A model generated the notes under the pieces. The model was not told the DNA's origin. It saw only the letters and a list, made by a program, of their open reading frames with translations, and did no database searches. Shown here piece after piece: positions 49,397-52,470 of a stretch of DNA of 64,000 nt (its first letter is position 1; the number at the start of each line of letters is the position of its first letter). A program made the position numbers and the translations under genes. The DNA comes from Paenibacillus woosongensis (GTDB lineage: Bacteria > Bacillota > Bacilli > Paenibacillales > Paenibacillaceae), in assembly GCF_030122845.1 (NCBI RefSeq), contig NZ_CP126084.1, forward strand, positions 4,464,001-4,528,000, read 5' to 3'.

Positions 49397-49454
49397 AAAA
49401 TAAAAATCCCCGAAGGAGGCGGTCAATATTGCTTTAGGCCGCCCCTCAGGGGAT
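49397..49454 (-). terminator. Terminator of the kamA-like gene
   Basis: On the minus strand CCCCTGAGG.. pairs with ..CCTCCTTCGGGG (inner CGGCC/GACCG), followed by ATTTTTATTTT. Confidence 0.7.
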
Positions 49455-49475: not shown

Positions 49476-50663
49476 TTATAACATGGCAGGCGTACGTTTT
49501 CTCTTCTGTGGAAAATCGGGCAGCTCGTTTACAGAGACGATTTCATCCGTCTTCTTCTCCGGCTGCTTCCAATACTGTTCATTGCCGGGAAGGTCGTCGA
49601 ACCAGGACGCATCCTTCGGACAATCGAGGATCATCAATTTGCCGTAATCCCCGTCACGGGACTGGTGATATTTCAAATAGGCCTTGCCGTTTTCAATTGC
49701 TAGAATTTCGATCTTGCCCGACGTATGGCTCATCGACAGTCTGACGCGTTTGCCCAGCCCGGATGTGCGCGCCTTCGCCTCCTCGACGATCCGGTAGACC
49801 TCTTCCAGGGAAAGGACGAAATCCCGGTTCCCGGCTACCGGCCTGTTCACGAAGAAGTAGTAAGGCGTAACCCCTGCCCAGGACAGCTTATCCAGCAGTT
49901 CGCCAAGCACTACAGGGTCATCGTTGATGCCTTTTAGCACGGGGGTCTGGTTGACTACGATCGCGCCAGCCTCATGCAGTGCCTGGAAGCCGCGTCTCGC
50001 TTCCGCCGTAATTTCGCGCGGATGGTTAATATGAGCCATGACGTAAATGCGCTGCTCCGGCGTGGAAAAGGTGCGGATCACATCGAGCAGTTCCTCGTCC
50101 TCGTAAATGCGCATCGGATTAAATACAGGAATCTTGGAGCCAAGACGAATGATCTTAACATGCTCGATTTCACGCAGCTGGGCCAGAATTCCCCGCAGCT
50201 TCTCCGTAGCCAGAATGAGGCTGTCCCCGCCGGTCAACAGGACGTTGTTGATTTCGGGATGCTTGGCGATATAATCGATCCCCGGCTGTACATCGGACAT
50301 GGCCTCCTTCACGTCATTGCGGAACAAACGCTTGCGGAAGCAATATCGGCAGTACGCGCCGCACACCTCCGACACGATCAGCAGAGCTGTCGTCGTATAC
50401 TTGTGCTGACAGCCCGGCACGACATAGTTGGTATCCTCGTCTGACGCATCCCAGCGGCCGTATTCCTCTAGCTCCCCTTCATTCGGGATAACCAGCTTGC
50501 GAATCGGATCCTGGGGATCGTTCCAGTCAATCAGGCTCAAATAATAATCGTTCACCCGAAATACGAACTTCTCCGTAATCGGTTTCAAACGCGCCCGCTC
50601 CTCCTCCGGAATCATCGTCAGTCTGTCCAGATTCGTAATGTACTTCGTTTTCGCCTTTGTCAT
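49476..50663 (-). CDS. KamA-family radical SAM aminomutase-like protein
   Basis: A 395-residue radical SAM protein. The [4Fe-4S] motif CGAYCRYC (CxxxCxxC) is followed by FRKRLF and LLTGGDSLIL. The family includes lysine and glutamate 2,3-aminomutases, which shift an amino group from the alpha to the beta carbon with PLP. In place of the usual PGGGGK PLP-lysine loop it has SHTSGKIEIL, so it belongs to a shorter, divergent subgroup and its amino acid is unknown. GGAAGGAGG precedes the ATG at 50663. A c-di-AMP riboswitch upstream hints at an osmolyte role. Confidence 0.88.
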   Translation of the reverse strand: MTKAKTKYITNLDRLTMIPEEERARLKPITEKFVFRVNDYYLSLIDWNDPQDPIRKLVIPNEGELEEYGRWDASDEDTNYVVPGCQHKYTTTALLIVSEVCGAYCRYCFRKRLFRNDVKEAMSDVQPGIDYIAKHPEINNVLLTGGDSLILATEKLRGILAQLREIEHVKIIRLGSKIPVFNPMRIYEDEELLDVIRTFSTPEQRIYVMAHINHPREITAEARRGFQALHEAGAIVVNQTPVLKGINDDPVVLGELLDKLSWAGVTPYYFFVNRPVAGNRDFVLSLEEVYRIVEEAKARTSGLGKRVRLSMSHTSGKIEILAIENGKAYLKYHQSRDGDYGKLMILDCPKDASWFDDLPGNEQYWKQPEKKTDEIVSVNELPDFPQKRKRTPAML

Positions 50664-50690
50664 TTGTACATCCTCCTTCCTAGTAATCAA

Positions 50691-50716
50691 CAAAAAAGAC
50701 CCCAAACCGGGGGTCT
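50691..50716 (-). terminator. Second leader terminator before the kamA-like gene
   Basis: On the minus strand AGACCCCC..GGGGTCT is followed by TTTTTT, 28 nt before the start codon. Confidence 0.88.
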
Positions 50717-50747
50717 AGACACAGCTGCGCCAGCAAGGGTCAGAAGA

Positions 50748-50773
50748 CAAAAATAGACCCCAAAACAGGGTCT
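50748..50773 (-). terminator. First leader terminator before the kamA-like gene
   Basis: On the minus strand TAGACCCT-GTTTT-GGGGTCTA is followed by TTTTT. Its arms are nearly identical to those of the second terminator, so the two could exchange partners. Confidence 0.85.
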
Positions 50774-50799
50774 AAAGAGACGTAATTAATGATTTAAAA

Positions 50800-50945
50800 C
50801 AGACCCATCCACTGCTGACGAGGTTAGCTGACGGACTCGGGTAAGATGGTACCCTACACCTCATAGGAATGAGTGATTCGCCCCAAGAAAAAAAACTGGT
50901 TCCCCCGCTTTCCTGGCTATCACCAAGAAACTAAGCGTGTGTCTA
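50800..50945 (-). promoter_or_regulatory. c-di-AMP riboswitch (ydaO/yuaA type)
   Basis: On the minus strand the signature blocks occur in order: GCTTAG near 50935, GGGGGAACCAG (50906-50896), GGGGCGAATCAC (50884-50873), TAGGG, and TCCGTCAGCTAACCTCGTC (50835-50817). These are the conserved elements of the ydaO-yuaA aptamer, a c-di-AMP-responsive OFF switch. Two terminators follow before the kamA-like start. Called by motif recognition only. Confidence 0.9.
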
Positions 50946-51005
50946 TGATACGGTGTAAGGGAAAGATTGTCAACCTTAGGGCAATTAACAAGAGAATTGG
51001 AATAA

Positions 51006-52218: not shown

Positions 52219-52470
52219 ATGAGTGAGACGAGACAACGGTATAACGAAACATTTAAACGTGAAGCCGTAAAGTATGTGCAAGAACAAACCAAGTCACTCG
52301 AGGAGATCGCAAACGAGTTAAACATTAACCCCGGTACATTACGAAACTGGGTCGGAAAGTATCGAGAATTTGAAAATGAACCCGTTAACCAAGGCGAAAC
52401 TCTTCGCCAGCAATCTCAAATGATCGATGAACAACAACGGGAAATCGCACAAATCGCCGTTTATTACTGA
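52219..52470 (+). pseudogene. IS3-family OrfA, truncated
   Basis: The frame starts RQRYNETFKREAVKYVQEQT with HTH LEEIANELNINPGTLRNWVG, a typical IS3-group OrfA. It keeps the start of the leucine zipper (QMIDEQQREIAQ) but then ends with IAVYY instead of the usual LEEENAILKKA-type continuation. No OrfB follows. A ribosome site (AAAGAGGTG) is intact. A relic of an element whose 3' part is gone. Confidence 0.8.

Follow-up and report, generated by a model that had tools for sequence, protein, structure and literature searches.

The locus analysed here raises the question of why a c-di-AMP riboswitch should precede a radical SAM enzyme of the KamA family, and what that enzyme may produce. It lies in a stretch of 64,000 nucleotides of Paenibacillus woosongensis DNA, referred to below as the window. 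The idea of an osmolyte switch at such a gene has partly been published, since a c-di-AMP aptamer before Dehalobacter ablA, and Na+ aptamers before both ablA and eam, were read as osmolyte control (PMC9337991). In a search of openly accessible literature, no paper was found that deals with the KamA subgroup described here, with its pocket, or with dead aminomutases under riboswitch control.

The transcription unit consists of the following elements, listed in the order of transcription.

50945-50973, minus strand: sigma-A type promoter, TTGACA-17-TATCAT, 11 of 12 consensus bases (pattern scan and coordinates)
50798-50947, minus strand: c-di-AMP riboswitch aptamer (RF00379, ydaO/yuaA), 77.9 bits, E 2.2e-16, full model 1-134 of 134 (Rfam)
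50800-50810, minus strand: GGAUGGGUCUG element directly 3' of aptamer helix P1, predicted antiterminator strand (predicted leader fold)
50748-50776, minus strand: intrinsic terminator T1, stem UAGACCC...GGGGUCUA (50774-50754), then a U run (hairpin scan)
50692-50716, minus strand: intrinsic terminator T2, stem AGACCCC...GGGGUCU (50716-50697), then a U run (hairpin scan)
50661-50678, minus strand: ribosome-binding site AAGGAGG (50678) and ATG start (50663) (open reading frame and coordinates)
49476-50663, minus strand: kamA-like gene, 395 aa, KamA-family radical SAM protein of the group termed clade A (TIGR00238, PF04055, match to 2a5h, predicted fold)
49397-49454, minus strand: intrinsic terminator 3' of the kamA-like gene, stem of -25.2 kcal/mol, then TTTTTATTTT (hairpin scan and coordinates)

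An earlier note on this DNA had called the aptamer ydaO-type by eye and proposed a covariance search, which bore the call out: sequence and structure together scored 77.9 bits against the curated gathering score of 38 bits, over the full length of the model. It was the sole c-di-AMP aptamer found by Rfam in the window. An expression platform is present in the 5' leader on the strand of the kamA-like gene, and the switch is a full member of the ydaO/yuaA class, with complete aptamer and terminator and an unusual target gene. The promoter ends at the 5' edge of the aptamer, where transcription would be predicted to start. The GGAUGGGUCUG element forms the 3' tail of the aptamer, both terminators start with AGACCC, and in a computed fold of the leader that ends with the 5' arm of T1 the element pairs with the AGACCC of the terminator in a 7-bp antiterminator helix. 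GAUGGGUC was found in every relative leader tabulated, and the succession of a GGGUC tail, then GACCC / GGGUC and a U run is common to most relatives, active and dead alike, with the simple hairpin search choosing other stems in some of these leaders. A longer version of the gene starting at TTG 50705 was rejected because it overlaps T2. The promoter, the two leader hairpins and the strong terminator after the gene thus delimit a transcription unit of one gene, headed by a complete riboswitch leader.

Only about six c-di-AMP aptamers were found by the RF00379 search in the 5.29-Mb genome, the window locus among them, so that the chance of one lying so close upstream of the gene is less than 1 in 1000. 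The survey of KamA-like genes for the switch, also proposed in the earlier note, located an aptamer upstream in 49 of 59 Paenibacillaceae (Paenibacillus/Cohnella) loci and in none of 21 Bacillaceae relatives, both counted in named genomes, and in 23 of 30 family genomes; the closest named relative among the loci was Paenibacillus woosongensis, at 98% protein identity. An Rfam search around the gene in 13 Bacillaceae and three riboswitch-free Paenibacillaceae loci gave no RNA match. Clade A as a whole occurs in about 94 of 295 Paenibacillaceae genomes (hand count at 70% identity or above). The view that the riboswitch precedes and controls the KamA-type gene is upheld by the promoter, T1 and T2, the antiterminator element, the monocistronic unit and the recurrence of the pairing in those 49 of 59 orthologues. 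The riboswitch and its lasting link to a KamA-like enzyme are secure. Elsewhere in the window, a lysine riboswitch (112.9 bits) at 314-508 on the plus strand precedes an APC-type amino-acid permease at 595-2064 on the plus strand, which probably serves lysine uptake, and a short open reading frame at 52219-52470 on the plus strand resembles a transposase helix-turn-helix fragment.

Membership of the encoded protein in the KamA family was apparent from both sequence and predicted structure. It scored 223 bits against the NCBIfam profile TIGR00238 (KamA family radical SAM protein, cut-off 199) and matched the lysine 2,3-aminomutase (LAM) of Clostridium subterminale, PDB 2a5h, with E 5.8e-56. AlphaFold2 supplied with 36 orthologue sequences gave a model with pLDDT 82 (35 for the single-sequence prediction), whose best solved match was again 2a5h, with Z 28.4 and 3.0 A over 310 residues. 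The fold match extends over the whole length, and the CxxxCxxC motif, the carboxylate arginine and the PLP lysine are all present and aligned, at 32% identity over the aligned part. All functional equivalogs (LAM, EAM, EpmB and arginine aminomutase) remained far under their NCBIfam cut-offs with the window protein. The enzyme had been described as belonging to a divergent, short KamA subgroup; the divergence stands, the shortness does not, as its 395 aa compare with 416 aa in the solved LAM chain and the protein is divergent rather than short. The positions that bear on its chemistry are given below, with counts for clade A, for EAM and LAM-like sequences, and for a group of paralogues (clade B) taken up further on.

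50340-50363, minus strand: CGAYCRYC (C101, C105, C108), the CxxxCxxC [4Fe-4S]/SAM motif; kept in 114 of 114 clade A, lost in 30 of 30 clade B
49842-49844, minus strand: Arg274 codon, in the place of LAM Asp293 and EAM Lys; R in 113 of 113 clade A, K in 12 of 12 EAM, D in 7 of 7 LAM-like
49734-49736, minus strand: Ser310 codon, in the place of LAM Asp330 and EAM Asn; S in 104 of 113 clade A, N in 12 of 12 EAM, D in 6 of 7 LAM-like
49713-49715, minus strand: Lys317 codon, in the place of the LAM PLP lysine (Lys337); kept in 113 of 113 clade A, lost in 18 of 29 clade B

The carboxylate-binding arginine, mapped by position to R110, is also invariant in clade A.

According to the LAM structure literature, the side-chain amine of lysine is held there by Asp293 and Asp330. 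Both aspartates are replaced in the window protein, and the resulting Arg274/Ser310 pocket argues against lysine; a basic residue in the place of an amine-binding acid favours an acidic side chain. Twelve EAM equivalogs (TIGR04368), fetched for comparison of the pocket, showed the same pattern of a basic residue at the Asp293 site and a polar, non-acidic one at the Asp330 site, and EAM has the fold class and cofactors that are predicted here. EAM differs, however, in carrying Lys and Asn and a Gly-rich segment round the PLP lysine where the window protein has Arg, Ser and SHTSGK on a separate branch; the two did not group together in a quick tree, and the score of 231 bits against the EAM cut-off of 650 shows that the window protein is not an EAM orthologue.

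A lysine 2,3-aminomutase of the beta-lysine type would share the family and the nearest solved structure, and a precedent for its control exists in Dehalobacter, where the ablA leader likewise places a c-di-AMP aptamer with its own terminator before a KamA-family 2,3-aminomutase (PMC9337991). That leader differs in serving a lysine enzyme and in carrying a tandem Na+ aptamer, whereas in the window the c-di-AMP aptamer stands alone and the pocket of the enzyme is not of the lysine type. With both amine-binding aspartates gone throughout clade A (R in 113 of 113, S in 104 of 113), a LAM equivalog score of 217 bits against a cut-off of 525 and no AblB in the genome, by a search that was positive in B. 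subtilis and Methanosarcina, this identity is quite improbable. A protein-lysine or EF-P modifying enzyme is more improbable still, to the point that we give it hardly any weight: EpmB belongs to the KamA family, but the similarity is weak (194 bits against a cut-off of 369), the lysine-binding aspartates are absent, and no EpmA was found above cut-off in the genome, where the sole strong match, a 508-aa frame, resembles lysyl-tRNA synthetase. The same observations speak against the protein-lysine substrate that the earlier note had named among the outcomes counting against its proposal. With neither AblB nor EpmA above cut-off, roles in beta-lysine osmolyte synthesis and in EF-P modification are unlikely, and the replacements of Asp293 by Arg and of Asp330 by Ser make an acidic beta-amino acid (beta-glutamate or other) far likelier than N-acetyl-beta-lysine.

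The reading towards which we lean, if only modestly, is that the clade A enzyme acts as a 2,3-aminomutase on an acidic amino acid and yields an osmolyte, probably beta-glutamate, and that c-di-AMP would switch its gene off. Beta-glutamate is known to serve as an osmolyte, in a Gram-positive bacterium among others (PMC1224877). By sequence reading, the genes behind the other c-di-AMP riboswitches of the genome encode a TrkH/KtrB-type K+ transporter, two NlpC/P60 proteins, a G5/3D protein and a LysM-3D wall protein; three DAC-domain (c-di-AMP synthase) genes are also present. The two NlpC/P60 genes (L004 and L006, genome 110527-111498) are adjacent, each with its own c-di-AMP riboswitch, in an apparent tandem duplication. 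Among the relatives, ectABC(D) lies directly upstream of the clade A gene in five loci (L068, L075, L079, L083 and L097), from Paenibacillus silviterrae, P. doosanensis, Paenibacillus sp. UNC451MF, Paenibacillus sp. RC67 and Cohnella lubricantis; in L079, EctA, B, C and D were each above cut-off. In the genome of the window itself, an Ectoine_synth search gave no match, with no control coming up positive. Among the Bacillaceae that carry the gene, many are from genera that favour salt or alkali (Evansella, Salipaludibacillus, Alteribacillus, Salibacterium, Natribacillus, Geomicrobium). Of the osmolyte proposal in the earlier note, the general role is favoured by the K+ uptake and wall genes under the other riboswitches and by the ectABC(D) neighbours, while N-acetyl-beta-lysine as its product is disfavoured by the pocket and the absence of AblB.

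An aminomutase of the same kind could instead serve a purpose other than osmoprotection, such as the turnover of imported beta-amino acids or the supply of a building block for secondary metabolites or the wall, with its c-di-AMP control tied to the envelope and not to solutes. In Bacillaceae loci (L091, L096, L107, L109 and others) the riboswitch-free clade A gene stands opposite a GSA-type aminotransferase and an RpiR regulator, with a fused TRAP permease and sometimes a fumarylacetoacetate-hydrolase-type gene nearby; such a locus may possibly act in beta-amino-acid uptake or turnover, and its aminotransferase, RpiR regulator and TRAP permease suit uptake or catabolism equally. On rhizobial plasmids, KamA relatives with Arg at the LAM Asp293 site (L198, L199) lie beside ATP-grasp ligase or gamma-glutamyltransferase genes, so that an Arg at this site is no proof of an osmolyte; their annotation as lysine 2,3-aminomutase appears doubtful. 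Wall genes, moreover, make up most of the other c-di-AMP riboswitch targets in the genome. Against such a purpose, the gene stands by itself in the window and in most Paenibacillus relatives, unaccompanied by a transporter or ligase gene, and the ectoine neighbours point to osmolytes; we consider it an unlikely reading, yet one that carries some weight. In the P. alvei/apiarius group (L081, L082, L099), a riboswitch-free clade A gene follows genes reading as argG-argH.

Dead aminomutases under c-di-AMP control are, on sequence evidence, the most surprising lead of this analysis. Paralogues without CxxxCxxC were found in 30 of 295 Paenibacillaceae genomes and are mostly 35-57% identical to the window protein. 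Their loci, and the operon found behind some of them, are as follows.

L037-L050 and L165-L180: clade B loci; for example gene L166:3032-4147, plus strand, with its aptamer at L166:2765-2910
L166:4318-6876, L165:197-2766 and L046:3748-6004: pspA-DUF350-DUF4178-DUF4247 operon directly behind the dead kamA, Cohnella

The residue table takes in the fragment L054 but not the broken L047; 28 of its 30 sequences have a gap at the site of the carboxylate arginine, and of the 29 with a letter at the site of the PLP lysine, 18 have another residue. Residues 101-120 are the most consistently deleted and the N-terminal half is weakened; the C-terminal half (180-360) is kept. A c-di-AMP aptamer nevertheless stands at all 30 loci, and 97% of the cells in the alignment of these aptamers (n=30) are paired, with 90 two-sided changes against 30 expected by shuffling, in an alignment fitted to the model, which favours such pairing figures. 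Pairwise dN/dS in clade B is 0.06-0.34. Decay into pseudogenes was rejected on these dN/dS values and on the paired cells with their covariation; a few copies are broken or fragmentary (G255, G207). Thirteen of the genomes also hold an active copy and 17 do not. Clade B forms one side of a branch with a modest support of 76 in a quick tree, and a single origin is possible on this sequence comparison. Recurring C-terminal ends of the type YQIGD, YHIGD, HEIPD, YEIPD and YVIHD were noticed in clade B proteins and in a few of clade A (L019).

The gene neighbourhood of the dead paralogues takes two forms. In Cohnella they lie between glyA and the pspA-DUF350-DUF4178-DUF4247 operon, and in a second genus (L170-L173, L041, L042) behind thiO-thiD, with an alpha/beta-hydrolase (HSL-type esterase) about 70 nt downstream and no terminator between, so that the riboswitch may control both the dead kamA and the esterase. 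That the clade B switch is kept only for the pspA operon was considered and rejected, since a terminator splits the dead gene from pspA in most of the pspA-linked loci. At 18 loci with this operon and no kamA, no convincing riboswitch was found (one weak match, 27.7 bits).

The presence of dead paralogues under the same switch suggests some non-catalytic role in the family. Whether the clade B lineage, radical-SAM-dead and partly PLP-dead, is kept as a c-di-AMP-controlled binding or regulatory scaffold is a proposal that we hold in even balance; its members would act, for example, as sensors of beta-amino acids or osmolytes or as partners of an envelope protein. Carried over to the whole family, the proposal would be that the switch is conserved because active and dead versions alike use the KamA scaffold non-catalytically, to bind a metabolite or a partner protein. 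In favour of this extension, all 30 dead paralogues have the switch and show purifying selection, and 17 occur where the genome has no active copy, but the catalytic residues are kept in 113-114 of 114 clade A sequences with dN/dS mostly below 0.11, indicating that catalysis is demanded there, and we regard it as rather improbable for the family as a whole.

For clade A, a catalytic osmolyte gene as favoured above would work as a stand-alone osmotic-response unit, on which RNA polymerase begins at the edge of the aptamer. At high c-di-AMP, in turgid and K+-replete cells, the bound aptamer would leave GGGUCU unable to pair with AGACCC, the terminators would form and the gene would be off. Under osmotic stress c-di-AMP would drop, and pairing of GGGUCU with AGACCC would allow read-through and production of the radical SAM/PLP 2,3-aminomutase. 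With its Arg274/Ser310 pocket, the enzyme would most likely act on an acidic amino acid and shift its amino group, most simply by converting L-glutamate into beta-glutamate, a metabolically inert compatible solute that would act alongside ectoine and K+. We infer the OFF logic by analogy with the ydaO class, and it was measured for the Dehalobacter ablA leader (PMC9337991); the proposed substrate and osmolyte role of the clade A enzyme are likewise inferred.

If this proposal is true, a large group of soil Gram-positives would make an acidic beta-amino acid osmolyte de novo under the control of c-di-AMP, and a single lone gene would tie K+ turgor signalling to an organic counter-ion of K+. A second glutamate-type 2,3-aminomutase, on its own branch of the family, would also be predicted. 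The dead paralogues matter more: radical SAM aminomutases would become a source of riboswitch-controlled pseudoenzymes, and a strictly kept switch before proteins incapable of radical chemistry would offer a natural experiment on the other roles of this scaffold.
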